Source of the DNA: Phycisphaerales bacterium
GTDB taxonomy: Bacteria; Planctomycetota; Phycisphaerae; UBA1845
Reading direction: 5' to 3'
Assembly (NCBI GenBank): GCA_013140575.1
Contig: JABFSN010000168.1
Coordinates: 1 to 64,000, forward strand
DNA length: 64,000 nt
Part shown: in pieces, positions 48,966 through 64,000 of the stretch
How the letters are laid out: each line of letters opens with the position of its first letter
How positions within the stretch are numbered: position 1 is the first letter of the stretch
Position numbers and translations under genes: made by a program
Notes under the pieces: model-generated
Seen by the model: only the letters and a program-made list of their open reading frames with translations
Told to the model about the DNA's origin: nothing
Database searches by the model: none

Positions 48966-49037
48966 GCGGGTGTAGCTCAGTGGTAGAGCGTCACGTTGCC
49001 AACGTGAATGTCGAGGGTTCGAGCCCCTTCACCCGCT
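48966..49037 (+). tRNA. tRNA-Gly (anticodon GCC)
   Basis: A 72-nt cloverleaf: acceptor GCGGGTG pairs with CACCCGC, the D arm contains AGCTCAGTGGTAGAGC, the anticodon arm is TCACGTTGCCAACGTGA with GCC at 48998-49000, and the T arm has GGGTTCGAGCCCC. The discriminator is T and no CCA is encoded. Its 3' end is followed by an integrase-bearing element, so it probably served as attachment site. Confidence 0.95.
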
Positions 49038-49308
49038 GTTCGGGCAGGCGTGGTCCACGAGCGACAACGGCGTCCAACTCTTGTCACGGGCGAGAGTTAC
49101 GACGCCTTCGCCGACCGCTCCGAAAACCTCGCAAACATGCCCGTTTTGCCAATGAGTGCCTACCGCTGACGCCGATGGACGCGCGTACGTGGAAGGTTTA
49201 GTGGAAGGTAAATCGGCGAGCGCGCAATAACGAACTCCGGAGAGACCGAAATTCGGCCCGTCAACCCGGTTGGATTGAGTGACTTTTCTGCGGGCCGGAG
49301 CGCGTCGT

Positions 49309-50832
49309 TCAGGACGTAACCCGGCGGCGTTGGGGGGCGTCGTGGGCGACGGTGATGGCGCTCAGCGACGTTTCGGACGGCGTCAGCGGGGGAAGGGCCG
49401 CAATCGCCCCGGCCACGTCGAGGAGCTTTGGATCGGTGTAGATGTTCGCGGTCAACTCGGGTTTCGAGTGCCGCATGGCGGCCTGCGCTGTGCGAAGCGG
49501 TATGCCGGCCGCGCACAGGTGCGTGCCGAACGTCACCCGTAGGGCGTGAATGTCCACGACGCGATTGCGTTCGTCCCGCTTTGGAATACCCGCCGTGGCG
49601 AGGTCGCGATCGAAGATGCGGGTCAAACCCGAGGGGATGCGGAACAATGGCGTAGACAGGGGCAGTCTGGCGGGTATCGGCTTCCGTTTTGTGCTCGCCT
49701 CATCCTGCAGCATTTCGAGCCGTTCAGTCAGCCAGGCCCGCAGTTCGGCCACCAAGTCCGCTCGTAACGGGATGTCCGATCCCCGACGATTCTTTTCATC
49801 GGAGGGATTCAAGACGGCGAACGCGACGTGACTGTGGAGTTCGAGTTGTCCGACGGCCAACGAGGCCAGTTCGCCTTTGCGGAGGCCGGTCAGAAATAGA
49901 GTTTTGTAAATTAGTGCCCGTTCACGCCCGGTCCGCTCGAGCCGGGCGAGCAGGCCAGGATTGTTCTTGAGCGCCTCGCGGGCCCGTTCCGCGGCCGCGT
50001 CGAGGTTCTCGACGGTCAGGGGTACGCGTTTCCACGTCGCCCGGCTCCGAGGCGCTCGATCGGCGTCGGCGTCGGTCGGGGTGATTCCGCGGCCGTACTC
50101 GGCCAGGGGTCGCAGACGGGCGACCTTCAGGAGGCGCAGTAGTTCCGCCACCGTCAGAGCCCGACGTTGGTGCCGCCGATCCGCGTTCTGATCGGCCCGC
50201 GGCAGGTCGGCGAACGGATTCCGCGTCAACCGGTGCGTCCGTCGGCACCAATTCCCGAAGCCGATCAGGCTTTCGCGATAGCCGTTGCGCGTCGCCGCGC
50301 CCATGCCCGCATCGGCCTGCGCCACAATCCATCGCTCAACCGGCCCAGGCGACAATTGCTGGAGCCGTGTAAACCGGCAGGCGCGCGCGAGACGTTCCAG
50401 CCTCCTCAGAACCATGCCCATCCGGCGCGGGTCGCTGCCCTTGGCCCGCAGATGCCTTTCATATGCGGCGACGTGCTTTGACAGCGGCGACGTTGCGTGA
50501 TCGGCGATATCGGTCTCCGCCGTTGTCAGGACGCCGGCGCGCACGAGTTCGGCGTTCCGCTCGAGCTTGGTCAGCACCGTCCGGGCCGCGATCTCGTCCT
50601 TGCAGCCCGTGGCCACCTCGACGATTTCACCGTTTCCATCGCGATAGCGAGCCAGGAACTGCCGGGACTGGCCCCGAACGCGGAGTTTGCCATCCTGGCA
50701 ATCGACGACCTCGCCTGACCGACGCTGGCCGTTCCGCAGTTGCCACCGGGCGATACGCACGCCGCCCTGCTCGGTGATCTCGGCGCCGGCAGGCACCGGC
50801 ATGGTGTATCGTTTGCGAAAAATCATTCCCAT
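49309..50832 (-). CDS. Tyrosine recombinase (integrase)
   Basis: The protein of about 507 residues has a SAM-like core-binding region (about 130-220) and a C-terminal catalytic domain. The tyrosine recombinase residues are Arg in LTGLRKGELASL, Lys in DEKNRRGS, His and Arg in DIHALRVTFGTHL, the second His in MRHSKPELTANIYTD and the Tyr nucleophile in the same segment. The N-terminus (MIFRKRYTMPVPAGAEI) resembles a short SH3-like module of planctomycete phage integrases. The start could be 50832 or 50826. The stop codon faces the tRNA gene. Confidence 0.9.
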   Translation of the reverse strand: MGMIFRKRYTMPVPAGAEITEQGGVRIARWQLRNGQRRSGEVVDCQDGKLRVRGQSRQFLARYRDGNGEIVEVATGCKDEIAARTVLTKLERNAELVRAGVLTTAETDIADHATSPLSKHVAAYERHLRAKGSDPRRMGMVLRRLERLARACRFTRLQQLSPGPVERWIVAQADAGMGAATRNGYRESLIGFGNWCRRTHRLTRNPFADLPRADQNADRRHQRRALTVAELLRLLKVARLRPLAEYGRGITPTDADADRAPRSRATWKRVPLTVENLDAAAERAREALKNNPGLLARLERTGRERALIYKTLFLTGLRKGELASLAVGQLELHSHVAFAVLNPSDEKNRRGSDIPLRADLVAELRAWLTERLEMLQDEASTKRKPIPARLPLSTPLFRIPSGLTRIFDRDLATAGIPKRDERNRVVDIHALRVTFGTHLCAAGIPLRTAQAAMRHSKPELTANIYTDPKLLDVAGAIAALPPLTPSETSLSAITVAHDAPQRRRVTS

Positions 50833-51003
50833 CGGTTGCATCCGACCCGGATCCGTACCGGGTGCCCCAAGGGAGCGGTCACGCGCCGAGGAAGGCAAGG
50901 CAAGCCGGCCGCCTGTTTTCGGCTTTTTTCTGGCCGCGGCGGCTGTCCCGGGGTGCGAAGCCGCGAGAACTTCCCAAGGCCACGGACCGGCCAGCCCAAC
51001 CTG

Positions 51004-53802
51004 TCAAACTTGGTCCCACGGGTCCCGATCCGCTTCACTTGCCCATTCGGCCTGCTGGTTCAGATCGTCGACCGACAGCTCGCCGGTCGGTCCGTTCAAC
51101 CCCGTTCCCGAAGTCGTTCCCGAAGACGACCCGCGTTTTTCGCGAATCCCCGAAGTTCCCGAAGACGTTTCGTAAACTCGTATATCATTCACACCATCCA
51201 CAACGCCCTTTTCCAAGGTCGCCTTCGCGAATTTAGAAACCTCTTCGGGGACTTCGGGGAACTTCGGGAAACTGCCATTTGAATGCGGGGTTTTACATCC
51301 GGCGTCTTGGGGCGACTTCGGGGGACGCACGTCAGGAATCAAGCGAACCTGATATTCGTGTCGTTCCCGTTGCTGTTCGTCGTGGTAGGTCCGACGTTCG
51401 ATTTCGTGTGCGTCGATGATAATGACGTGGCTGGAACCGAAGCAGGACGCCAGCCTCCGGCCTACGCCTCGCATTGCCTTGTCGCGAGTTACATCTAATT
51501 GCAGGTTGCCGCCCTCGGCCCCGACTCCGGGGATCTCGATCCCGGCGTCATCCAACAGGTCGATCAGCCGGTGGGTGTGAAGCCATTGGTCGATTGCTCC
51601 GGCCCTCGCGACGGCCATCACCACGTCCCGAAGCCAGGTCATGGAGGGCGTGCTGACTCGGCGTTGTTCGCCCTGATGGCCGACGAGCAGGGGGGCCTCG
51701 CCCAACACGTGCTGGGCGATCCAATCGAGCGTCTGCGCCCACGCTCGGAAGTCGTGGCGGGTCTCGTTGGTCCCTGGCCTCCCAGCCTCGAACCACATCC
51801 GAACGACGGCGAAGACTGCCGCAAGATACTTTGACGGATTTGCCCGAACGTGGGCGAGGATGTCGCCCTCGACGTATCGTGCAAACCGGTAGTCTTCCGG
51901 CTGTTTCCGTAACCTCACGATGGCCGAACGGTTGGAAAGGTCACGCGTCGTTTCGGCCCGATTCGACGTGAACATGATGACGAACCGACGCGGATCAATC
52001 GCGACGTTCTTGGAATACGCCGTCCGCGCCGTAAACACGTCTTCGGTCAAGAACGATTCAATCTCCGTCGAGTTGATCTTGTCCCGCATATTGTCGAACG
52101 AGATGAACGGCTCACCGGCGATCAGCTTCGCGCTGAATTGTTCGTCCACGCTCCCGACCCCGCTCTTCCGGGTCGTGATGGTCGCGACCTTGCGGCCATA
52201 GATCGCCGCGGTTAATTTGTTGCGAAACCCCTTACCTGCCTGTGAATGGTCGGCCTCAGTCATGTCCATCGGCAGTCGGCACCGCGAAAGCTCGCCGAAC
52301 ACCAACGCGGGTGCGATCACCGACGCCAGCGCCCGCGAACGGTCCGACGGCGAAGCGAATTGAAAATCTTTGAGAAGCTCGTCGAATAATTGCCGTGCCT
52401 CCTCGACCGTCACGTCGGGGACGGGAGCTCCGGCCGCGTAGATCCCGCTCGCACGGTCATAGCCGCACACTTGAACGAGTCGGCCATCACGTTCGATCGT
52501 CACGGGACACGATGAAAGTAGCTTGAGTTCCGGCAACTGCGACACGAATGCCTCGGCGTGCATGATTGCCTTTGCGACGGACTCACTGCACAAAGCAGGC
52601 TTCAGTTTGGGCTCGTCACCCCTCGTGTCCCAGCGTGCCAGCTGCGCTACAGTTTCAAACTCGGATTGCAAATGCTTGGGCTCGAGTACCTCCAGTGTTT
52701 CGCCGTGTTGGTACCGCGCCACGGCACCGCCGCGATTGAAGACTCGTTCGGTCCGGCCAAGCAACGCCCCAAGGTCGCGCCCCACCTCGGTGTAGGTTCT
52801 TACTCCGTCCGGCAATGTGACCACCGGCAACCGGTCGCATTTGGCTCCGCTGCGAGGCTTTGCCGGCGATTCTGCAAACGCATACGCTTTTTGAACCGTC
52901 GTCCGTACCCAATCGTCGCGTTCGCCCTTGTCGCATCCGTTGTCGGCGCACCACTGCCGTATAGCCGTTTCGACCTCCGCAGTCGGCACGCTATGGCGAA
53001 CCAATTCCGTCGCGATGCTCATGGCAACGGCGGACCGCGACGTGTCGCGCATGCCCGTCGCGTCGCCTTTCCAGCGCTTGGCCAACAGGGTGTTCGGTTT
53101 GCCGATCAGTGATTGCACGCGCGGAGACAGTCCGTCGGAGGAGACGGCCGCGCTAATTTCCGCCGGTTTCTGTAGCTCGCCGAAGCCCAGCTGCATTGCG
53201 GTCATTCGCAGGTCGGCCTCGGACACACGAGTGACCGATTTCATTGCGATCATCGGGTCGATCGTGTTCCAGTCGTCCTCCAGGTCCACGAAACGAGACT
53301 GACCCCACAGCGGGTATCGGATCAGATTGCCGATGCACTTGCCGGTCAGGGTGTCCTGCTTGGGATAGACCTCCTTGAATTTGATGCCGATTCGGGTTTC
53401 GACGCCCCGCCAGAACGCACGAACAATCCATGCTTCAATCGGTTCGATGAAGAAGAGCCAGACGTGCGCCGCGCATCCGCTTTGAGAGATTTCGACCAGC
53501 GGCGTGAATCCCGACTTGACCAGCTCGAAATACAACGCCTCGGCCTTCTCCCGCCACCGCGGGTCCGGGGCATGCGTCTTGTTGTCGAAATCAACCGCCG
53601 AGAAGAAGCACGTGTTGTCCAGCCTCGGCGAATAGACGCCCAGGCAGCGCTTCCCTGACAAGTGTTCCGCTTCGAGGCGTTCCGGGGTGATCGATCCGCG
53701 TTCCCAATCGAACCCCCTGCCCGTGGCGACGGCGATGATGTCGTCGCGGCCCCTGAAAAGTTCCACCATGAGTCGGGCGACAGCTTGCGCGGCAGTCCTC
53801 AA
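51004..53802 (-). CDS. Primase-polymerase (TOTE-type AEP) fused to AAA+/SF3-like helicase
   Basis: The 932-residue replication protein has an archaeo-eukaryotic primase domain in its first 200 residues: the metal-binding VDFD at 70-73, and ISQSGCAAHVWLFF with the conserved His at 113, as in TOTE-type AEPs. A central region (about 240-310) resembles a primase C-terminal helix bundle. The C-terminal ATPase has a degenerate Walker A SQAGKGF (520-526), a Walker B-like FISFDN (566-571) and sensor MFTSNRAE (610-617). It would prime and unwind at the element's own origin. TTG 53802 is the first start; ATG 53769 is an alternative. Confidence 0.82.
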   Translation of the reverse strand: MRTAAQAVARLMVELFRGRDDIIAVATGRGFDWERGSITPERLEAEHLSGKRCLGVYSPRLDNTCFFSAVDFDNKTHAPDPRWREKAEALYFELVKSGFTPLVEISQSGCAAHVWLFFIEPIEAWIVRAFWRGVETRIGIKFKEVYPKQDTLTGKCIGNLIRYPLWGQSRFVDLEDDWNTIDPMIAMKSVTRVSEADLRMTAMQLGFGELQKPAEISAAVSSDGLSPRVQSLIGKPNTLLAKRWKGDATGMRDTSRSAVAMSIATELVRHSVPTAEVETAIRQWCADNGCDKGERDDWVRTTVQKAYAFAESPAKPRSGAKCDRLPVVTLPDGVRTYTEVGRDLGALLGRTERVFNRGGAVARYQHGETLEVLEPKHLQSEFETVAQLARWDTRGDEPKLKPALCSESVAKAIMHAEAFVSQLPELKLLSSCPVTIERDGRLVQVCGYDRASGIYAAGAPVPDVTVEEARQLFDELLKDFQFASPSDRSRALASVIAPALVFGELSRCRLPMDMTEADHSQAGKGFRNKLTAAIYGRKVATITTRKSGVGSVDEQFSAKLIAGEPFISFDNMRDKINSTEIESFLTEDVFTARTAYSKNVAIDPRRFVIMFTSNRAETTRDLSNRSAIVRLRKQPEDYRFARYVEGDILAHVRANPSKYLAAVFAVVRMWFEAGRPGTNETRHDFRAWAQTLDWIAQHVLGEAPLLVGHQGEQRRVSTPSMTWLRDVVMAVARAGAIDQWLHTHRLIDLLDDAGIEIPGVGAEGGNLQLDVTRDKAMRGVGRRLASCFGSSHVIIIDAHEIERRTYHDEQQRERHEYQVRLIPDVRPPKSPQDAGCKTPHSNGSFPKFPEVPEEVSKFAKATLEKGVVDGVNDIRVYETSSGTSGIREKRGSSSGTTSGTGLNGPTGELSVDDLNQQAEWASEADRDPWDQV

Positions 53803-53950
53803 CGTCGGCCCCGCTTTCCGGTGACCGGAAGGGTCGCCGCGCCGGCCCGTCCCTGGCCTGCGGCGGTTCGGATCCCTTGGCTGGTGACGTGGCTGAGCGT
53901 CTCATGCCCCGACAATGCGAGCGGGAATCCCGTGGCCGCGTGCTTGCTGG

Positions 53951-54214
53951 TCACGAGCGGTGAGCCCCGGGCTGTTGGACGGGGCACCGCGCGGCGATCC
54001 ACTGCTCCAAATCAATTCGGCGCCATCGAACCAGCGCGCCGAGCTTGACCGGACGCGGCATCTTGCCGCTGTCGGCCATTCGGTGGATGTGGCGGATCGA
54101 ACAGCCGCCCAGAATCGTTGAAACGGCCCGGACATCCAGCATTTCAGCGGCAATGTTCGGTCGTGGATCAAGATTGACGGTGCGCCCGTCGGAAGACTGC
54201 ACTTGCGTAGTCAT
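53951..54214 (-). CDS. AlpA/MerR-type helix-turn-helix regulator (excisionase-like)
   Basis: The 87-residue DNA-binding protein carries the AlpA-type winged helix: EMLDVRAVSTILGGCSIRHI, then HRMADSGKMPRPVKLGALVRWR. Such proteins act as excision or lead activators in satellites and prophages. ATG 54214 is preceded by GGAGG at 7 bases, which settles the start although the frame continues upstream. It lies directly upstream of the primase gene and 86 bp from the iteron block, which it could bind. Confidence 0.88.
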   Translation of the reverse strand: MTTQVQSSDGRTVNLDPRPNIAAEMLDVRAVSTILGGCSIRHIHRMADSGKMPRPVKLGALVRWRRIDLEQWIAARCPVQQPGAHRS

Positions 54215-54299
54215 TTTGAAGCCTCCACACATCGGAACTGGCGAGCACTGTGCCCGCGTGACGCGTGGAGTCTCGTCTAGAAAGTACCGTTCGTCAGTA

Positions 54300-54343
54300 A
54301 GCAACGGTATAGCAATGGTATAGCAATGGTATAGCAACGGTGC
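54300..54343. repeat. Four tandem 11-bp iterons
   Basis: AGCAACGGTAT (54300-54310), AGCAATGGTAT (54311-54321), AGCAATGGTAT (54322-54332) and AGCAACGGTGC (54333-54343) lie head to tail with no spacer. One helical turn per unit is the usual spacing for cooperative protein binding. The block sits upstream of the AlpA-primase genes and downstream of the 587-residue gene. It could be the replication origin, the AlpA operator, or both. Confidence 0.85.
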
Positions 54344-54364
54344 GCACCGTTCATCGCGAACGGT
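54336..54364. promoter_or_regulatory. Nested palindromes abutting the iterons
   Basis: AACGGTGCGCACCGTT (54336-54351) is a perfect 16-bp palindrome. Its right half begins a second dyad, ACCGTTC (54346-54352) and GAACGGT (54358-54364) with a 5-base spacer. A further ACCGTT lies at 54286-54291 on the other side of the iterons. All share the ACCGTT/AACGGT half-site that also forms the iteron core, so one dimeric protein may recognise all of them. Confidence 0.75.
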
Positions 54365-54373
54365 AGTGTGCTG

Positions 54374-56137
54374 CTAGTCGTGGGTAACCGCGGACAGCAG
54401 TTCGTCGCCGCGGCGCGTGAGCCAGTACCCGCCCTTCCAGCCGAGCTTGCTTGCAGCGAGCTTCCGGTGCACCAAATCGGACAGTGGTACCTTGAAGCCA
54501 CTTCTGTTCTGTTGCGAACCTTCGGCCTTCACGGCGATCTTGGAGGCATCCTGCAGGGACTCTGCATCGAGCGCCTTCAACTCGCGCAGCGCGATCATGC
54601 AGTTCCGTTGACGGTCGGTGAGCGAGTTCCAAAGTTTGAGCTTCGCGTCTGACTCCGTGAGTTCCGCTTCTCCGCCATTCGGGGCGCCGTCCGTTTTCAT
54701 GATTGGCGTCGCGTCCGACTCCAAAGGGATGGCTTCGCCCTCGCGAATCGTATTGCGGTGGTCGTCTATCGGATCGGTCCCATTCATCGCCCCGGCCGAC
54801 GCACCCGGGGGCGATGCGACGACGATCTGATCCCGGAACAGCCCGCATGCCGTGGAGCACGCTTCGGCGCGGAGCTTGATCCGGTGCCGCTGATCGGCTT
54901 CGTCTCCGTCGGGTTCGCCCAGCGCCGATTCATCCTCCACGAACGCATCAGGCGGACGGCTCCATTCCTTGAATACGCGGCGACCCGGTGGCAGGATTCC
55001 CTTGGCCCGCAACTTGGCCGTCCAAATCCTCAAGGCCTCCCGGCGGCCCGGCGCCATCGATCGAAGCTCACTTGCCGCGAAGTATGTGATAATGGGTGCG
55101 ACGCTCGCGTCTATTCGCACGTGCTGCCAGTCCAATTGCGAAGCGTCGGGGTGAAACAACCCCGGGTGTTTCTTGATCTGGCGTTGAATGGCGAATGTCC
55201 ACAGCCGGCACGTGCGTTCGTGGCCGGGAGTGCCGAGAAACCCCTCAATGACGTGCGCGAACGGTCCTGTTGTATTCAAAATCCAAGACCGTTCACGTTC
55301 CCAGTCGGGCAGCAAGCCGGCATCGGCTGCGGCGTTCAGTAGCGTTGCCGCTTGCAGCAGGGCCGCTCCGAAGTCGTGCTCTAGGTGCGACATCTTGGCC
55401 GTTTCCGCTCGGCCTGCGAGTTCAGTAAACTTGTCGCCGAGGCCTTGAAACATCTTGGCATGCCTCCTTGCGATTTCGTTACGGGCCACGTCATCCTCCT
55501 GTTGTTTGGTGAGTGATGTTTCCTGTGCCGTTCGTGTAACAAGAATGGTCCCCTCGTTCGAAGCCGATCCGGTTGGGATGTCCGGCGCATCATCGAAATG
55601 AATCGCGATGTGATTGGCCACGGCTCCCAGCATGTTGCATATCCGGTGTAGGCGATTAAGGCGCCCGTCGTGCCCGCGAATCGGAATGGAACCCTCGTTT
55701 ATCGATTCCGCCAGTTCAATCCACGTGTGCCACGGACGCCCTGTCGTTTTTTCGACTTCCGCGGCCAACGATGCAATCCAAGTTGCGACGATTCTAACCG
55801 CGTCCATTCGGGCCGACTGGATTCGGCGCTTAAACTGGCGTGCCGTCAGCCTATCAGAGGAAAGCAGCAAGTCACGCAACTTGCCTTCTGCCTCGCATAT
55901 GCATCGGTTCGTCTCTGAGCCTCCCGGGCGGCAGGATCGAAAGTGCCCGATAAATGATTCCGCGAAATCGGTCGCATTCTTGAGCGCGGATTCTCCCGTT
56001 ATCTTTTTCGATCGTTGCGTTGCTCGCTGCTGCGTCTCTTCGAGCGCCAGCAGCATTTCCGCAAGGTACGTAGCGGTTTCGAATTCCGCCGGGGTTACGA
56101 ATTCAATTTCAGTTGCTGGCGATGCGTCGTCGATCAC
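54374..56137 (-). CDS. Large unknown protein of the integrated element
   Basis: I do not recognise this 587-residue protein. It is mostly alpha-helical and charged, with a long helical N-terminal half (about 15-200). The C-terminal 90 residues look like a winged helix (LTDRQRNCMIALRELKALDA, then GFKVPLSDLVHRKLAASKL and GGYWLTRRGDELL). There is no signal peptide, membrane helix, Walker motif or nuclease motif. GTG 56137 is used, with GAGG 9 bases upstream. It is a candidate for an element-encoded regulator or accessory function. Confidence 0.7.
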   Translation of the reverse strand: MIDDASPATEIEFVTPAEFETATYLAEMLLALEETQQRATQRSKKITGESALKNATDFAESFIGHFRSCRPGGSETNRCICEAEGKLRDLLLSSDRLTARQFKRRIQSARMDAVRIVATWIASLAAEVEKTTGRPWHTWIELAESINEGSIPIRGHDGRLNRLHRICNMLGAVANHIAIHFDDAPDIPTGSASNEGTILVTRTAQETSLTKQQEDDVARNEIARRHAKMFQGLGDKFTELAGRAETAKMSHLEHDFGAALLQAATLLNAAADAGLLPDWERERSWILNTTGPFAHVIEGFLGTPGHERTCRLWTFAIQRQIKKHPGLFHPDASQLDWQHVRIDASVAPIITYFAASELRSMAPGRREALRIWTAKLRAKGILPPGRRVFKEWSRPPDAFVEDESALGEPDGDEADQRHRIKLRAEACSTACGLFRDQIVVASPPGASAGAMNGTDPIDDHRNTIREGEAIPLESDATPIMKTDGAPNGGEAELTESDAKLKLWNSLTDRQRNCMIALRELKALDAESLQDASKIAVKAEGSQQNRSGFKVPLSDLVHRKLAASKLGWKGGYWLTRRGDELLSAVTHD

Positions 56138-56676
56138 GGTTCACTACCTCATCGAGTCGTGACCCGGTTCCGAAGCCAATTCCGACCCGCCGACGATTCT
56201 ACGTTGGACCCGCGGCGCGACAACGCGGTGTGCCTGATTCCTCGAAGTCCCGTGAGAATCATCTGGAACCGGTGTGCGGTGCGAACAGTTCGCACCGATG
56301 GAAAATTACAGGCCAGCCGCCCTTCCGAAATCGGAATGCCGCAACCGGCGGCGCCCGAGAAGTTCGAAACGCAATGTCGGGGTGCCGAGAACAACAGGCC
56401 TGTTAACCCGAACAACCAGTTAACCGCGAGAGGTCGATAGTTCGATAGGTTTTCGCGCCGCCTCGCGCTGAATCGGTCTCGAATCGAGAGCGCCCGACAC
56501 GACTCGCGACGCCGTTTTCGCAAACCGATAGTCGGGCCAAGAACCGCGTTTGGCGCAACAACGCGTGGGTTTTGGACTTGCGGCGACTCGTCGACGCGGC
56601 CCACGCGCACGGACCCGTTAACCAAAGGGCCGCCCGATTTCGCGGCGGCCTTCTCACCTCCCCGAACGCATCCCTA
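56138..56676. other. Non-coding region of the integrated element
   Basis: About 540 bp without a convincing gene. It contains the inverted repeat at 56277-56297 and three GTTAAC hexamers (56402, 56419 and 56617). A 158-codon minus-strand frame (56149-56625) is of uneven composition, without RBS or homology, and is not called. Confidence 0.4.
56277..56297. promoter_or_regulatory. Inverted repeat, candidate operator
   Basis: Arms CGGTGCGAA and TTCGCACCG, 9 bp each and perfect, are separated by CAG. The dyad lies about 140 bp upstream of the 587-residue gene. It shares CGGTGCG/CGCACCG with the palindrome at 54336-54351, suggesting one regulator for both ends of that gene. Confidence 0.6.
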
Positions 56677-56684
56677 GTGTTGCG

Positions 56685-57389
56685 TCACTCGTTAATCTTC
56701 GGGTACAGTCGGCGTAGCTTGATTCGGGCGTCGGCGGTGGTGAATCGCCAGTCGATGATGGCGCGGCTGCGGCTGCGGCTGCGGTTGCGGTCGTTCTGCC
56801 AGCGGTCGACGGCGGCGGCGAGCGTGGGTTGATCGGGAACGCGATCGCCCATGCACTGCCGCGAGAGCACACCCAGTTCGATTTCCGCCATGTTCAGCCA
56901 ACTCCCGTGCTTCGGCGTATACACCACCTCTAATCGTTCGATCAACCGTCTGGCCTCGGACGGTTCGAAGGCCTCGTACAGCGATGCCAACGCGTGCGTG
57001 TTCAGGTTGTCCATGACCAGCGTCACCCGCTCGGCGCGCGGATAGTGCACATCCATCAGCATGCGAACCTGCTCGGCCCAATCGCATTTCGTCCGCCGAT
57101 CCGTGACCGCCACGCGCCGTCGACCTGCCATCGGTTCGCAGAACAGGAACACGTTGGTCGTGCCGTTCCGCTCGTATTCGTAGTCGAACCGCTCGGACTG
57201 TCCCGGCAGGGCCGGTTGGGGCAGGCGCGTCTCCTTCACGAGTTGCTTGCTGGTCTCGTCCATGCACACCACAGGCCGCTTCGGATCGTACGGCCGGTGA
57301 TAGACCTCCAGCACGTTTTCCATCGCGCAGACGAACTCGGCGTTCTGCTCCGGCGGAATGCACCACATCTGCTTCCGCCAAGGCTTCAA
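56685..57389 (-). CDS. IS630 transposase, catalytic half (DDE)
   Basis: This frame encodes the DDE catalytic domain: Asp in VVCMDETSKQL, Asp in TLVMDNLNTH and Glu in SWLNMAEIELGVLSRQC, with the IS630-typical TPKHGSWLN. It is in the -1 frame relative to the upstream half. Slippage on the A7 tract (57394-57400) yields the family-typical LKKNELKPW junction. A low-complexity RSRSRSR insert appears near the C-terminus, from short CGGCTG repeats at about 56765-56790. An independent TTG start is unlikely to be used. Confidence 0.88.
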   Translation of the reverse strand: MKPWRKQMWCIPPEQNAEFVCAMENVLEVYHRPYDPKRPVVCMDETSKQLVKETRLPQPALPGQSERFDYEYERNGTTNVFLFCEPMAGRRRVAVTDRRTKCDWAEQVRMLMDVHYPRAERVTLVMDNLNTHALASLYEAFEPSEARRLIERLEVVYTPKHGSWLNMAEIELGVLSRQCMGDRVPDQPTLAAAVDRWQNDRNRSRSRSRAIIDWRFTTADARIKLRRLYPKINE

Positions 57390-57844
57390 CTCGTTTTTTT
57401 GAGCGCGCGGCGCACGGTCTCATAGCAGATCGAGTCCACGATGTTCAATTCCACCAGCCGATCCGCCAGCAGCCGCAAGGTCCACCGCCGCCGTCCCTCC
57501 GGCGGCTTCGAGCAAGACACCGCGATCAATCGCGCCTCTTTCGCTCCATCCAGCAAAGGCTCCACCGCGGGCCCGCACCGTTTCTTCCGCTCCAGGGCCG
57601 CCTCCAGGCCCTCCTCCACGCATCGCCGCCGGATCTGTTCGACCGTGCGGGTCGTCACACCCAGCCCCTCGCCAATCCGCTCGTCCGTCCAGCCGGGGCC
57701 ATCCGCCGATTGGTCCGCCTGCAACAACACCCGCGCGTGCGTCAACTTCCGCGCCGCCCCTTTGCCCACCGACACCAACCGCTGCAACCGCTCGCGTTCC
57801 GACGTCTCCAGTCGAACCACATACCGCTTGTTGGGTCTGTTCAT
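57386..57844 (-). CDS. IS630 transposase, DNA-binding half
   Basis: The 152-residue frame holds the N-terminal helix-turn-helix region: RLQRLVSVGKGAARKLTHAR, then WTDERIGEGLGVTTRTVEQI, followed by a second HTH (LRLLADRLVELN). GGAGG precedes ATG 57844 or 57847. The frame ends just after the A7 tract at ALKKTS. Frameshifting there is needed to make full transposase; the short product alone might act as repressor. Confidence 0.88.
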   Translation of the reverse strand: MNRPNKRYVVRLETSERERLQRLVSVGKGAARKLTHARVLLQADQSADGPGWTDERIGEGLGVTTRTVEQIRRRCVEEGLEAALERKKRCGPAVEPLLDGAKEARLIAVSCSKPPEGRRRWTLRLLADRLVELNIVDSICYETVRRALKKTS

Positions 57845-58203
57845 CATGATCCTCCATGATCCGGATTCCGTCATCCACACCACGAAGAATCGACCATAGG
57901 CAACGACAAACTCGAAGATTTAGCGGTGACGGGACACTAGCAGCAACTCTCTCACGCGTCCTGGGCGGCCGTAGCGAGTTGAGGCGGCCGCTCAAGACTG
58001 GACGTGAACCGCAGGCTGATTTTCATAAAGGGCCGCTTCTATTGCTGTCTGATTTTCGACTCGTGCCATCCACCCCGCGCCGCCCGACTCTGGCCAGGAG
58101 CTGGCCCCGGCGCCAGCATCACGTCGCGACCGAACGCGGAGGATCAGTTTCCGGGCGATCAATGAAAAATGATACAAAGCGACAAAAGAAACTCGTATTC
58201 GAC

Positions 58204-58231: not shown

Positions 58232-58392
58232 CCTGTCTAGTGCGAACGGGATCGCGGTCCGTTTTGCGTCGATTCCGGTCGCACCTATCGGATGACTAGA
58301 TAAGGAGCAACCCGGCCCGGCCGGGTGGCTCGTTGCAGAGTAAGCCGACGTGATTGAACCCCTTTTGGAGTTCGATCACGTCGGTTTTTTTT
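58229..58392 (+). ncRNA. Structured 5' leader ending in a terminator, candidate cis-regulatory RNA
   Basis: Several nested pairings are visible before the terminator. CTCCT/TCTAG (58230-58240) can pair with CTAGA/AGGAG (58295-58306). GTGCGA (58242-58247) pairs with TCGCAC (58279-58284). GCAAC and GTTGC flank a very stable hairpin ACCCGGC-CCG-GCCGGGT (about 58308-58324). The order of multi-stem domain, terminator and secreted-protein gene is that of an attenuator or riboswitch. It does not show the c-di-GMP-I core or any other class I know. Confidence 0.4.
58345..58392 (+). terminator. Strong intrinsic terminator in the DUF3494 leader
   Basis: CCGACGTGATTGAAC (58345-58359) and GTTCGATCACGTCGG (58370-58384) form a 15-bp stem with one G-U pair and a 10-nt loop, followed directly by eight T (58385-58392). 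It is the clearest intrinsic terminator in the window. It lies 88 bp upstream of the first DUF3494 start codon, so transcripts from upstream must pass it to express the genes. Confidence 0.88.
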
Positions 58393-58479
58393 CGTTTGGA
58401 GTTTACGGAATCGCCGGTCGTCTCGATGCGAGCCGCGTTGCACGCCGGCCAAAGTCTGCGGCGATGTGGAGGAACAAGA

Positions 58480-59325
58480 ATGACATTCAGAGTGAATTGT
58501 GGGCTGACGCTCCTCGCGGTAGCGATACTCAGCGGCGCGCGGTCACCGGCGAAAGCCGATCTTCTCAGTTCGGCGGAGAGCTTCGCGGTTTTGGGTGGCT
58601 CGACGGTGACCAATATCGGTTCGACCACCATCTTCGGCGATCTCGGGGTTTGGCCGGGTCTGGCGACCATCGGCCTTCCGCCGGGGATCGTCAGTGGAGG
58701 AACGATCCACGCCGGCAACGTGGTCGCGCAGCAGGCGCAGATCGACCTCGCCACGGCGTACGATGCGCTCGCCGGCATGGCGTTCAATCTCGATCTGACA
58801 GGTCAGGATCTGGGTGGACTGACGCTCACGCCCGGTGTCTATCGGTTCTCGTCGTCGGCTCAGTTGACCGGGCCACTTACGCTTGACGGTCTCGGCGACC
58901 CCGATGCACTCTTTGTCATCCAGATCGGGAGCGCCCTCACAACCGCCAGCAATTCGTCTGTTCACGTTATCAACGGCGGCGATTCCAACGTGTTTTGGCA
59001 GGTCGGCAGTTCCGCGACGCTCGGCACGGGGACGGCATTCGCAGGCAGCATTCTCGCGCTCACGAGCATTACCCTGAATACCGGCGCAAGCATAGTGGAC
59101 GGAAGAGCCTTGGCGCGCAATGGTGCGGTGACGATGGATGCGAACAACATCTCCGTTCCGGAACCGGGCACCATTTTGCTTCTCGGCTTCGGGCTGGCGG
59201 GTCTGCGCGCTGCCGGAAAGAGGCGGCATCGTTCAGCGGCGTGGGTCGGGTCCGCTGACCGTCCGTCGCCGAACAGCTGCAAACGAGAAACGACCCACGG
59301 GACGATTATTTTCCACACGACTTGA
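58480..59325 (+). CDS. DUF3494 (ice-binding-like) PEP-CTERM protein
   Basis: The 281-residue secreted protein has a signal peptide (about 1-24) and a DUF3494 beta-solenoid domain: [20 protein letters not shown], then [28 protein letters not shown] and [29 protein letters not shown] signal ([17 protein letters not shown]...RR) follows. A further tail of more than 30 residues comes after the sorting signal, which normally ends the protein. GGAGG precedes ATG 58480 at 7 bases. Its stop is 14 bp before the next DUF3494 gene. DUF3494 includes ice-binding proteins and many surface adhesion proteins from warm habitats. Confidence 0.88.
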
Positions 59326-59339
59326 AAAGGAGGACCATC

Positions 59340-60659
59340 ATGCGAACAACCGACGCCAAAACGAAGGCGATTGGCACCTTTTGGATTGTCTTATTACTAC
59401 CGGTCGTCTTTTTTGCCGGATGCGCGTTGTCCCCAACGGGTATGACGCCGCCTCCGAACGACGCCGACGGGGACGGTGTGCGCGACACTGCGGACGACTG
59501 TCCCGATACTCCGTCCGGATCGGCCATCGATGCGCGCGGATGTACCGCCGAAGGACCAGACGTGGACGGGGACGCTGTGCCGGACAGTGCGGACCGATGT
59601 GAGGACACTGCTCCGGGTGCGGCGGTCGATGCGACCGGCTGTGCGGCTGAGCAGCTCGACAATGATGGCGATGGTGACGGCGTCAACGACGCGCTTGACG
59701 AGTGCGCCCGGACGCCCGTGACGGTAGAAGTTGACGACAGCGGATGTCCGGTTAGTGCGCCCGGCACGCCGGATAGCGACGACGATGGTGTTCCCAACGA
59801 TGTCGATCAATGTGCGAACACCACGGATGGGGCCGATGTGGACCCCAACGGTTGCGCCGATAGCCAGCTCGATACGGACGGCGATAACGTGAGCGACGAT
59901 CGGGATGAATGTCCGACCACGCCGCCGCAGACGGTGGTATCGGCCAACGGCTGCCCCGAGACGGCGCCGCCACCGCCACCGACGGGTCCAGCGCCGGTAG
60001 TCCTTGGAACGGCCGGCGATTTTGTGATTTTGGCAAAATCGGGAATCGATACCGTGCCGAACTCCGTGGTGACCGGAGACATTGGAGTTAGTCCAATCGA
60101 CTCCACCGCCATAACCGGGTTTTCATTAACACTTGATGCCAGTACCACGTTTTCGACATCTCCTCAGGTCACGGGATTGGTATTTGCAGCCGACTACAGC
60201 GCTCCGACACCCGCGGAGATGACCGCGGCCATCAGCGACATGGAAACCGCGTTTACGAACGCCGCCGGACGACCAACGCCCGATTTTACTGAACTGGGCG
60301 CTGGTGATATCAGCGGGCTGACACTCGTCCCCGGCCTGTACAAATGGGGTACCGGAGTGTTGATATCAACGGATGTCACCCTTAGCGGCGGCTCAAACGA
60401 TGTCTGGATATTTCAGATAGCGGGAGGCATTACTCAGGCATCCGCAACGAGCGTCGTCTTGGCCGGTGGTGCATTGCCCAAGAACATCTTCTGGCAGGCT
60501 TTTGGTGCTGTTGCACTGGATACGACTGCGCACTTTGAGGGAATAGTATTGTCCCAAACGGAGATCACCCTGGCGACCGGCGCATCGATAAACGGCAGAC
60601 TGTTGTCACAGACTGCGGTCTCGCTTGATCAGAACACGGTTACAGAACCCGCACCGTGA
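59340..60659 (+). CDS. TSP3-repeat DUF3494 lipoprotein
   Basis: The 439-residue lipoprotein (lipobox FAGC) has four or five thrombospondin-3/OmpA-linker-like calcium repeats (NDADGDGVRDTADDCPDTPSG and similar, about 40-205), a Pro-rich hinge, and a C-terminal DUF3494 domain (from VVLGTAGDFVILAKSGIDTV to the end). AAAAGGAGG precedes ATG 59340. It is cotranscribed with the PEP-CTERM DUF3494 gene. The pair shares the binding domain but uses different anchors. Confidence 0.88.
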   Translation: MRTTDAKTKAIGTFWIVLLLPVVFFAGCALSPTGMTPPPNDADGDGVRDTADDCPDTPSGSAIDARGCTAEGPDVDGDAVPDSADRCEDTAPGAAVDATGCAAEQLDNDGDGDGVNDALDECARTPVTVEVDDSGCPVSAPGTPDSDDDGVPNDVDQCANTTDGADVDPNGCADSQLDTDGDNVSDDRDECPTTPPQTVVSANGCPETAPPPPPTGPAPVVLGTAGDFVILAKSGIDTVPNSVVTGDIGVSPIDSTAITGFSLTLDASTTFSTSPQVTGLVFAADYSAPTPAEMTAAISDMETAFTNAAGRPTPDFTELGAGDISGLTLVPGLYKWGTGVLISTDVTLSGGSNDVWIFQIAGGITQASATSVVLAGGALPKNIFWQAFGAVALDTTAHFEGIVLSQTEITLATGASINGRLLSQTAVSLDQNTVTEPAP

Positions 60660-61012: not shown

Positions 61013-61828
61013 TTACCGCGACGGCGGTTGTGATTTATCCGACGATCTCTGACTGGCAGTTTTGCGGGGTTTTTTGAACGATGCGTTCTTTCGCGGCATC
61101 GGCTTGCCTGTGCCTGTTGACGACTTGTCGCCAATTGGGCCGATGGACGTGTCGACAAACTCCCGGATCGCCCGTTGCACCTGGTCCGCAAGCTTGCGCC
61201 TGGCCATTTGGCTGCCAAGTGACCGGCGCAATTGCGACAATTCGGCTGTCCGTTCCTGGAGCTGTTTTTTCAGTTGCTCGTGGGCGTCGCGCTCCTGCTG
61301 CTCCGCTTGTTTGCGCGCCGTGATGTCTTCGATCATAGCTATGATCCTGACGGCTCGGCCGGCATGATCGCGCAGGGCGGACCCGTGTACACGCACCCGG
61401 ACAACACTTCCGTCTTTGCGGACGCAACGTTTTTCAATGGACCAGGAGTCGGTCTTGCCGCGGATCACCCGCGCAACCTCCTTCATGTCTCTTTTGCGAT
61501 CCTGAGGATGAGTAAGACCAATGTAGGTTTTGGTCAGCAGTTCTTCGGCTGAATACCCCACAATCTCGCAGAACTTGGTGTTGACCCGGTTAAAGTGGAA
61601 TGCGGGAGTATCGGCTTGAATCATGCCGATGCCGTCAAGATCGAACATGGCGGAGAATTCGCCGCTGCTCTCCAGGCACGCGTCCTCGACCTTGCGGAGC
61701 AGCAGGAATGCGATCTTGTCCTGGCCGACGACCGCATCCACTTCCTGGCGCTTCAAGGCCTCGACGATGGGTTCCGCCGCGGCCAGCCGCTTTTCGAGTT
61801 GCCGATAGGTTGGTTTGGTTTTCCTCAT
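61013..61828 (-). CDS. PAS domain protein of the kai operon
   Basis: The 271-residue soluble protein has one PAS/PAC domain (about 58-178: MIQADTPAFHFNRVNTKFCE, then GYSAEELLTKTYIGLTHPQD and RIIAMIEDITARKQAE), followed by a coiled coil (about 180-225) and a basic Ser/Lys-rich tail. There is no kinase, cyclase or receiver domain. ATG 61828 overlaps the kaiB stop by 4 bases. It may relay or sense a signal for KaiBC, as PAS kinases do beside kaiBC in other bacteria, but it lacks the kinase. Confidence 0.85.
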   Translation of the reverse strand: MRKTKPTYRQLEKRLAAAEPIVEALKRQEVDAVVGQDKIAFLLLRKVEDACLESSGEFSAMFDLDGIGMIQADTPAFHFNRVNTKFCEIVGYSAEELLTKTYIGLTHPQDRKRDMKEVARVIRGKTDSWSIEKRCVRKDGSVVRVRVHGSALRDHAGRAVRIIAMIEDITARKQAEQQERDAHEQLKKQLQERTAELSQLRRSLGSQMARRKLADQVQRAIREFVDTSIGPIGDKSSTGTGKPMPRKNASFKKPRKTASQRSSDKSQPPSR

Positions 61829-62151
61829 GACTCCGTTCCCGACAGGCGGAGTGCGGCAAGCACCTTCGGTAAGTCACTCAGGTTGCCCAGGACCATCACC
61901 CTTGGACGTGGATCGACCAGAATCAACGCCGGGGTGACCAATATGTTGTCCCTGACCGCGGCTTCAAAGTCCTTCACCACATCGATCGTTTCAATTGTGC
62001 AACGACCGTTCAGGTACTCCCTGCAAAGGCCACGAAGGTTGGCGAGTGCTGTTTGGGAATTCTGTCCGTTGCCTGCGATGAACAGCCGGAGCAAGTAATG
62101 GCGGCTCTGTCCCTTTCCCGCGCGGCGGCCGGCTTGGAGCGACTTGCTCAT
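61825..62151 (-). CDS. kaiB: KaiB family protein
   Basis: The 108-residue thioredoxin-like protein has the KaiB pattern: YLLRLFIAGNGQNS at the N-terminal strand and DNILVTPALILVDPRPRVMV followed by LGNLSDLPKVL in the fold-switching half. It has an N-terminal basic extension absent from cyanobacterial KaiB. It overlaps kaiC and the PAS gene by 4 bases each, so all three are coupled. Confidence 0.92.
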   Translation of the reverse strand: MSKSLQAGRRAGKGQSRHYLLRLFIAGNGQNSQTALANLRGLCREYLNGRCTIETIDVVKDFEAAVRDNILVTPALILVDPRPRVMVLGNLSDLPKVLAALRLSGTES

Positions 62152-63620
62152 TTTCCGCCGTCCTTTCGGCCGGCGCTCCCCGCCCGAACCGGTGGTGGCT
62201 GTGGTTTGTCGGTGAACTCTATGCCCCGGTTCGTAATGACGTACGCCTGGCGGCGATTGGAGTGCGCCGAGCCCCTGGACTTTACGATGAAGATCTGCCG
62301 GTTGACCTCCTGGTCGGTCTCGACAAAACGCAGTTGGACGACCGCGTCCACCACGGAGGAGAAGCCGACGCCGCTGATTTCCTCATCGCTACTTGTTTGG
62401 CCGTTGACCTGGTTGGTCAGGATGCTGGTAATGCCTCGTTCCTTGACCACGCTTATCAGCCGCATCATGAAATCAAAGGCCGCCTGTTCGGACCCCATGC
62501 GGAGGCAGGCGGAGACTGCGTCGAGGATCAGGTGGTTCGGCTTGAAGCTGTCGAGGGCCAGAATGGTACGACCCAGGTGACCATCAGAGCCAATGCTTTC
62601 CGGCATGGCGGTTTGGAAGAGCAGCTTTCGGGCGCGAATGGCTGGACGCAGGTCGATCCCGGGGCTGAGCATCCCGCTGATCAACGCCTCCTTGGATTCC
62701 TCGAAATTCAGGCTTAACACCCTTTCGCCGCGACGGCAGGCGGCATGCGCGAACGTGCTCGCCAGCGTGGTCTTGCCCGCGCCGCTGTTGCCCGAAATAA
62801 GAACGCAGGATGCGCGGCGGAAGCCTCCATCCAACATTAGGTCCAGTCCCTTCAATCCCGTGGAGACCTTTGGCCCCAGCGGCTGATGGGTCAGTTCGGC
62901 CGTGGTCAGCGGAAACAGGACAATCCCGTGCTCGCCAAAGACGTAGGGATACTCGTTGGTCCCAAAGCCGGAGCCCCGATACTTGATCACCCGTAATCGG
63001 CGAGTCGCCACTTGTCCCACCACTCGGTGGTCGAGGCGGATCACGCAATCCGCCATGAAGTCCAGGAACTCATATTGAGACATTTGTTGGGCGTCGTCGC
63101 GGTGAGACTTCACCGAAAGGACGCTGGTCAGCCCCCGGTCAGTTAACCAATCATGGAGCCTGAACAGTTCGTTGCGTTCGCGATTCAAGTCGTCGTAAAT
63201 CCGCAGCAGCACGTCCAACGCATCCATCACGATCCGCTTGGCCCGGATCCTCTTTACGTGCCCGCCCACGATCGCCAGCATTCCCTGAATGTCGAAATCG
63301 CCGGAGCGGACTTCTTCCCCGGGCAACCGGGCCTCAACGATGGCGATCTTGCCGGCCTTCTCCAGGGCCGCCAGGTTCCATCCCATCGACCGCGCGTTCA
63401 TACGGATGGCCCCGGCTCTTTCCTCAAATGTAACGAACACCCCGGGTTGACCCGCCATCGCCCCACGGCAAAGGAACTCCAGACCCAGCACCGTCTTTCC
63501 GGAACCCGGCCCACCACAGACCAACGTGGTCCGCCCTCGGGGAAATCCGCCCTCCAGGATCTGATCCAGCCCGGCGATTTGGGTTGCCACTTTGGGGATG
63601 GGGCGACGTTTTCCGTGCAT
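62148..63620 (-). CDS. kaiC: Circadian clock-type ATPase KaiC
   Basis: The 490-residue protein has two RecA-like domains. CI has Walker A GGPGSGKT (36-43) and catalytic Glu pair FVTFEE (62-67). CII has GNSGAGKT (277-284) and LNFEES (304-309). At the position of the cyanobacterial phosphosites S431/T432 it reads FSSVVDAVVQL, with Ser421 and Ser422, so autophosphorylation is possible. KaiA-binding tail residues are not conserved and no kaiA is present. ATG 63620 is the first gene of the operon. Confidence 0.94.
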   Translation of the reverse strand: MHGKRRPIPKVATQIAGLDQILEGGFPRGRTTLVCGGPGSGKTVLGLEFLCRGAMAGQPGVFVTFEERAGAIRMNARSMGWNLAALEKAGKIAIVEARLPGEEVRSGDFDIQGMLAIVGGHVKRIRAKRIVMDALDVLLRIYDDLNRERNELFRLHDWLTDRGLTSVLSVKSHRDDAQQMSQYEFLDFMADCVIRLDHRVVGQVATRRLRVIKYRGSGFGTNEYPYVFGEHGIVLFPLTTAELTHQPLGPKVSTGLKGLDLMLDGGFRRASCVLISGNSGAGKTTLASTFAHAACRRGERVLSLNFEESKEALISGMLSPGIDLRPAIRARKLLFQTAMPESIGSDGHLGRTILALDSFKPNHLILDAVSACLRMGSEQAAFDFMMRLISVVKERGITSILTNQVNGQTSSDEEISGVGFSSVVDAVVQLRFVETDQEVNRQIFIVKSRGSAHSNRRQAYVITNRGIEFTDKPQPPPVRAGSAGRKDGGK

Positions 63621-64000
63621 GATCTACTCCTGTTCGCGACTTCACGTCGCACCGGCCAAGCTCGCAAACGCCCGGGGATTGTCGGCGCCGACACACCCGG
63701 GAACAAAAAAACCGACGTAGCCGAACACGCACAGGTACTCGACCACGCCGGCTTACTCGTTGACTGGCCTCCCGGCGCCGCCGGGTTGCCCTTCATCTCG
63801 TCTACCGATTCGGAGGCGATTCGCACAGTAATCGCGCCCCACCACATCCATTGTGACACCCGCCGCGGACAAAGCAAACCGGTCTCTCAGGGGACGACCT
63901 GCTCCCTGGCGAATGATCCAGACGACGGAGAGTGCAGCCGCCCTCAGGGCTGCGGGGTTGGCGGTATTATCGCCTGGCGGGCAGGCCTATTTCTTCTTCA
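63621..64000. other. Upstream region of kaiC, nothing coding recognised
   Basis: 380 bp to the window edge. The kai promoter should lie here, but no clear -35/-10 pair was found. A short palindrome GCAGCCGCCCTCAGGGCTGC at 63943-63962 resembles the CCCTC..GGG palindromes at 47155 and 60974. Confidence 0.4.

Follow-up and report, generated by a model that had tools for sequence, protein, structure and literature searches.

A satellite-like integrative island at tRNA-Gly(GCC) in a planctomycete-type genome and its relatives with terminase but without capsid genes

The window (the whole 64,000-nt stretch of DNA that was analysed) contains one tRNA recognised by ARAGORN, a tRNA-Gly(GCC) at 48966–49037 on the plus strand, and to its right four genes that all lie on the minus strand. 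Adjoining the 3′ end of the tRNA is a gene for a tyrosine integrase (49309–50832; about 507 aa from its ATG, with the open reading frame reaching a TTG at 50898), which matched PF00589 at 54.9 bits and contains the catalytic motifs TGLR, HALR, RH and IYTD. It is followed by a 932-aa replication protein (51004–53802) in which an AEP-TOTE primase domain (PF22548, 95.8 bits in Pfam) is fused to a VapE/SF3-like helicase (PF05272; PHROG primase/helicase), with DxD, AHVW, Walker-type GKG and FDN motifs present. The third gene (53951–54214) specifies an AlpA-like regulator or excisionase of about 87 aa from its ATG (open reading frame to 54337). This protein matched PF12728 (HTH_17) at 27.6 bits and PHROG 66, 'excisionase and transcriptional regulator', and has homologues in related elements; the Phage_AlpA Pfam profile fell below its cut-off. 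The first-pass annotation had named an integrase, a TOTE-type AEP primase-helicase and an AlpA regulator here, and all three are borne out by the Pfam and PHROG matches and by the motifs. It had overlooked the fourth gene (54374–56137), which belongs to the element core and occupies a position that we call X. Its 587-aa product matched no Pfam family above cut-off and has a homologue in a relative (G031:C81); an AlphaFold model was set aside (mean pLDDT 40).

Between alpA and the 587-aa gene lie 3.8 copies of an 11-bp tandem repeat, AGCAACGGTAT (54300–54341; TRF score 70). The best window of this array gave 29 of 31 matches, whereas 60 shuffles of the region never exceeded 22, so the iterons claimed previously also stand, and they are a candidate origin or operator. 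Their sequence differs among relatives; in this position a clear direct repeat was seen in G461 alone, where it has a different sequence. The host is taken to be of planctomycete type on two grounds: named relatives of the primase come mostly from Planctomycetota and Verrucomicrobiota-group genomes, and the gene content includes kinases, ECF factors and dockerins.

The ARAGORN call confirms that the element sits beside a tRNA-Gly. When 60 relatives were searched with the tRNA and its upstream flank as query, partial tRNA-Gly copies that start at nt 26–28 and end at nt 72 were found in many of them, as well as in the window's own genome (G000). These copies, including one at G000:C208:7374, define a 46-bp att core. 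At attL the core corresponds to tRNA nt 27–72 (48992–49037, plus strand) and opens with the anticodon-stem palindrome CACGTTGCCAACGTG; the tRNA gene is left complete, since the element brings a replacement 3′ half, as can be read directly from the DNA. The tRNA-Gly(GCC) gene is both the insertion target and an insertion hotspot in the bacterial family of the host. Beyond the core, an arm of about 175 nt (49038–49212, plus strand) is conserved beside related integrases and half-sites in BLASTN comparisons across loci, and two GTGSAAG motifs 12 bp apart occur in it at +152/+164 (to +154/+166) in all 7 of the left ends examined. At three loci (L045:10073-10410, L048:10047-10343 and L041:7420-7601) a left-arm stretch of about 180–380 nt is also found after the half-site, 85–91% identical to the copy that follows the tRNA and with no integrase there. 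These duplicates are either remnants of earlier insertions or part of a longer repeat.

Relatives of the window's integrase, 63–75% identical to it, lie at the same tRNA. The same layout of integrase, replication gene or genes, AlpA-like gene and X, all on the minus strand beside the tRNA or half-site, was seen in G031, G030, G003, G017, G028, G033 and G461, and an integrase with a partial gene set in G013, G019, G458 and G460; many of these genomes are fragmented, gene calls are heuristic and one portion of locus L046 is given as N. A tree of 24 rows placed the tRNA-Gly(GCC) integrases, together with that of G460 (also at a Gly half-site), on one branch with 100/100 support. Three integrases at this tRNA (G057a, G011 and G032) fell outside the main branch, which indicates that other integrase lineages have also reached it. 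More distant integrases (45–55% identical) adjoin tRNAs for Gly-TCC, Gly-CCC, Thr, Pro, Val and Lys, and the peptide patterns used recovered no integrase relatives in IMG/VR. The window's genome itself encodes a further tyrosine integrase from this superfamily (50% identity; G000:C253:69548-71535, L105), which adjoins a tRNA-Gly(TCC) and has an AlpA-like gene 6.5 kb further on. In another family, G044:C18 (L196:7636-13115) shows the order X, AlpA, primase (42% identical) and integrase at a tRNA-Lys, with no attR found in the stretch examined.

One relative, G461, provides a complete element on a single contig: tRNA-Gly is followed by the integrase, and the 46-bp core recurs without a mismatch after 34,874 bp. 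Its genes run from integrase through a DUF3987 helicase, the AlpA-like gene, X, a type I restriction-modification cluster and an RHS-type surface protein to a terminase large subunit (TerL), which lies beside attR together with genes for an 804-aa protein and for a ParB_N/DNA methyltransferase that is split by an insert. None of the genes identified in this att-delimited element was recognisable as portal, capsid or tail. The methyltransferase gene (L100:16750-19431) carries its insert in frame near residue 326, and the same split occurs in G475:C32 and G485:C45; the insert is possibly an intein. At the right end of G003, HNH, small terminase (TerS) and TerL genes lie beside a methyltransferase, with homologues in G028.

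An empty site was found in G464, of the same genus as G028, where the tRNA-Gly is uninterrupted. Arm sequence comes next, then a gene for a secreted protein and one resembling that for lysyl-tRNA synthetase (lysS, a name given from its sequence); the region is covered by two contigs with an overlap of about 127 nt. The half-site of G028 precedes lysS on one contig, and the tRNA there precedes the integrase on another. An empty site with the exact right flank of G461 had no match in its genus. More distant integrase relatives also form compact, complete elements at other tRNAs. At tRNA-Gly(TCC), the G475 element lies between repeats that agree at 44/44 nt and are about 10.0 kb apart; besides an integrase, a DnaB-type helicase, AlpA and X it carries a large terminase subunit of the gpA type. 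In G469 a 65-nt repeat at 89% identity spans about 9.2 kb at tRNA-Thr. The repeats of G451, at tRNA-Gly(CCC), match at 48/49 nt, lie about 7.2 kb apart and enclose an integrase, a DnaB-type helicase and a small primase but no recognised terminase. The comparison that the first-pass annotation had suggested therefore recovered the gene set beside tRNA-Gly in relatives and defined attL and attR, through the 46-bp core, and an empty site.

Where the window's copy ends is a separate question. It had been placed at 48966–56674, with its right boundary at an insertion sequence of the IS630 family. No second att core or attR was found in the window or in the whole of its contig (C42, 67,532 bp), and a candidate attR half-site lies on another contig, at G000:C208:7374-7420. 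The right ends of eight related elements have a common 61-nt sequence to the left of the core, CAAGGTGA...CGCCGTAACTCTT...GGTTAGAACCCACCG; the element right-end sequence includes GGTTAGAAC...CACGTTGCC. A matrix of this right end, built without C208, gave 59 bits on C208 and at most 13.7 bits anywhere in C42. C208 also holds a fragment of a ParB-methyltransferase gene. With only a single tRNA-Gly(GCC) and a single half-site found in the genome, the data are read most simply as one island that would run from 48992 in the window across an assembly gap to C208, a link that we infer from this pairing of single sites and not from contiguous assembly. On this reading the IS630 is not the element boundary, the interval previously assigned to the element is its left third or less, and the window's copy would measure at least 26 kb (18.5 + 7.4 kb at least). 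A further contig, C111 (TerS, TerL and an integrase-like fragment), may lie between C42 and C208, but it could pair equally well with C225, which holds a serine-integrase element.

To the right of the core, the IS630-family insertion (56675–57941, minus strand; DDE_3 and HTH_32, with inverted terminal ends CTAGTGT...CGTCAC) contains a transposase ORF pair (56685–57389 and 57386–57883, both minus). Beyond it are genes that are probably cargo. Two ice-binding-like surface proteins (58354–60659, plus; PF11999), with PEP-CTERM and thrombospondin type 3 repeats, are counted within the element because they fall in the inferred interval from the tRNA to C208. A terminator-like 21-nt inverted repeat (86% complementary, 4-nt loop; 58342–58387) stands just before the first of them. 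The remainder, identified by Pfam, comprises a PAS protein, KaiB, KaiC and MpsC (61013–64000, minus), followed beyond the window by collagen/OmpA, PRC-barrel and DUF892 proteins. The kaiBC block (61013–64000 and L042) is syntenic with G002:C75, where the kaiBC part is 89% identical in DNA over 2.6 kb and the shared block also includes the PAS, MpsC, collagen/OmpA and PRC genes, though the genera differ. KaiC is 91% identical between the two genomes compared with 75% for cytochrome b, a backbone gene, and among the 60 relatives searched a close kaiBC copy was found only in G002; the other loci over the same threshold were three, in two other relatives, at 33–34% identity. Together, these values indicate that the block is accessory, and the sequences suggest that it was probably exchanged between genomes.

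The replication genes also differ in origin from their neighbours. In a serine-integrase element of G031 (G031:C81), homologues of the primase and of the 587-aa protein occur as a pair, whereas close relatives of the integrase carry DUF3987 or other replication proteins instead, so that the replication module has been swapped. The window's copy is a mosaic, with a replication module that matches those of serine-integrase elements, an internal IS630 and a probably transferred kaiBC block.

The distribution of terminase genes bears most directly on lifestyle. TerL of the G003 type was present in 15 of 100 relatives and the HK97-type portal PF04860 in 6 of 100, with both in only G007, G057 and G458; hence 12 of the 15 TerL-bearing genomes, including G000, G003, G028 and G461, lack PF04860, the only portal type scored. 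IMG/VR contigs with this TerL family continue with the PF04860 portal and a PF05065 capsid. As this pairing is the normal phage state, the absence of the portal in the relatives is informative, and their TerL genes lie mostly outside complete HK97-type phages. That two unrelated terminase types occur within one integrase superfamily suggests repeated acquisition. No relaxase or conjugation domain was detected among the scanned proteins of the window's copy, G461 and the other relatives scanned. Capsid, packaging and conjugation genes had all been described as absent; this holds for the sequenced part of the window's copy, but complete relatives do carry a terminase. The earlier interpretation also depended on a genuine insertion and on the absence of a longer prophage beyond the IS. 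The empty site in G464 speaks for insertion, and a Pfam scan from the IS to the contig end found no structural genes, so that neither objection applies.

These results make it reasonably likely that a large integrative island, at least 26 kb long, has its left end in the window and a satellite-like mobile element as its core. Our best reading is of a new family of satellite-like integrative elements with a presumed dependence on phages; judged from the gene content of complete relatives, which have packaging but no shell genes, its members probably travel in the capsids of other viruses. A satellite lifestyle is better supported than in the first-pass annotation because complete relatives are capsid-less yet carry terminases. 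As the sequence shows, the integrase directs insertion to the anticodon-stem/T-arm half of the tRNA-Gly(GCC) gene; the AlpA-like protein would act as regulator, excisionase or both, and the AEP/VapE primase-helicase would copy the circle after excision, starting at an origin close to the iterons. The element would make no virion of its own and would spread in helper-phage capsids, aided in several relatives by its own terminase, as the complete elements suggest. In the corresponding module map, the left end would hold exchangeable replication modules, the middle cargo (restriction-modification, surface proteins and, here, kaiBC) and the right end packaging genes and the ParB-methyltransferase. 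For a broader proposal, an undescribed and widespread planctomycete phage-satellite family with its own terminase (TerS and TerL, or gpA-type TerL) but without portal or capsid, with replication modules swapped between tyrosine- and serine-integrase elements and adaptive cargo such as kaiBC moved between genera, we regard the case as evenly balanced.

Could the elements instead spread without phages, as integrative plasmid-like elements with an integrase, an AlpA/Xis protein and an iteron-controlled primase-helicase, the terminases being passengers? The iterons beside alpA, compact relatives such as G451 without a recognised terminase and the presence of the same primase type in serine-integrase elements all fit this idea. 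We nevertheless consider it unlikely: terminases occupy the right ends of both G461 and G003, G028 has homologues, an unrelated gpA-type enzyme is found in G475, and two independent acquisitions suggest selection; moreover, the scanned proteins included no relaxase or conjugation domain. It is much less probable still that these are decayed prophages whose structural genes were deleted. TerS and TerL of the HK97-phage type, HNH and the ParB-methyltransferase are normal phage neighbours, and fragmentary copies exist in G012 and G000:C230. However, the capsid-less layout recurs across genera with intact att sites and integrase motifs, which makes independent decay to it unlikely, the compact 7–10 kb relatives have near-exact att repeats, and the portal is missing from most TerL-bearing genomes, as described above.

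A different doubt concerns only the extent of the window's copy, which might be a compact element of 7–8 kb cut at its right by the IS630, with the DNA beyond being chromosome or a tandem element that owns the C208 half-site. Indeed, the core from the tRNA to the 587-aa gene measures about 7.1 kb, close to the shortest complete compact relative (7.2 kb), and arm remnants follow the half-sites in G003 and G031. Against this stand the accessory kaiBC block to the right of the IS, with its close copy confined to G002 among the 60 relatives searched, the single half-site and single tRNA-Gly(GCC) of the genome, and the 35-kb element of G461 with the same layout; we therefore hold this alternative, too, to be doubtful. 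Rather improbable is a cargo island resembling tycheposons, one that spreads as a cargo element and not as a phage satellite. Tycheposons are defined by a tRNA border, a tyrosine recombinase and adaptive cargo (PMC10872708), and all three features recur here, the variable cargo including kaiBC and surface proteins, in a comparison made at the level of description. In contrast, the right-end terminase, the ParB-methyltransferase and AlpA lie outside that definition.

Among described satellites, the closest likeness is to the phage-inducible chromosomal islands (PICIs), which in Gram-negative bacteria are defined by an integrase, a replication module, a regulator, a unique att site, no structural genes and a size of 12–15 kb (PMC6092414). 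Site-specific attachment, an integrase, a primase-type replication module, an AlpA-type regulator and a lack of structural and lytic genes are common to both; the integrase, replication module and AlpA-type master regulator were found in the window's copy and in its relatives. A PICI site is not used by prophages; the present family has its own 46-bp core, but the integrase lineages of G011 and G032 share the tRNA. The differences are considerable. All core genes run towards the integrase with alpA upstream of the primase, an order unlike that of Gram-negative PICIs; the window's copy, at an inferred 26 kb or more, and G461, at 34.9 kb, exceed 12–15 kb, while the compact relatives span 7–10 kb; some PICIs carry a terminase small subunit, whereas the relatives here carry TerL with TerS, or a gpA-type TerL; and these elements, known from their genes alone, belong to a planctomycete-type host lineage. 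The capsid-less relatives with terminase favour a satellite-like assignment. Against the name PICI, used earlier for this locus, stand size and gene order. Terminase genes within the satellite recall capsid-forming PICIs (cfPICIs), but no capsid, portal, protease or connector gene was recognised in the complete G461 element.

Other systems match in part. As in tRNA integrative elements generally, there are direct repeats (G461, G475 and G451), an empty site (G464) and the C208 half-site. The portal, capsid and tail expected within a prophage were not recognised between the att sites of G461, and no PF04860 portal occurs anywhere in G000 or G461. An ICE or IME would be expected to encode a relaxase and, in the case of an ICE, conjugation machinery; the scanned proteins of the window's copy and of G461 contained no such domain. 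HK97-type temperate phages (viral contigs L142, L145 and L152) have the same TerS/TerL family, but they continue into portal and capsid whereas the elements do not. With TOTE conflict systems there is a likeness in the AEP-TOTE primase domain, but in the window's copy a VapE-like helicase is joined to it within the replication protein of a mobile element; such a system is ruled out by context, the neighbours being the integrase, the AlpA-like protein and the 587-aa protein, with no conflict partners.

Terminase genes have been taken as a sign of phage mobilisation, and a review of mobilizable elements lists satellites from families of Proteobacteria and Firmicutes and, recently, Cyanobacteria and Actinobacteria (PMC11389934). 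Within the literature searched, 'phage satellite' and the name of a planctomycete did not occur together in any paper; the satellite-like tRNA-Gly family is apparently undescribed so far. If the satellite reading holds, it supplies a defined att site, ends and a module map, a basis for tests of induction, packaging and the transfer of cargo in a host group whose gene transfer is poorly understood, and terminase matches alone would overcount prophages in the planctomycete lineage.

Finally, we noted a second element type in the window's genome (G000:C140:16504-32476; L102, L103 and L111), with a large serine integrase, a primase, a ParB-methyltransferase, TerS and TerL, and no portal recognised. 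Similar elements occur in contigs C225 and C230, in G031:C81 (L192) and in G003:C77 (L194), and an IMG/VR contig (L138) has the same layout with its start missing. In G057:C87 and G007:C566, TerL lies beside a PF04860 portal; these loci are candidate complete prophages and possible relatives of a helper phage.
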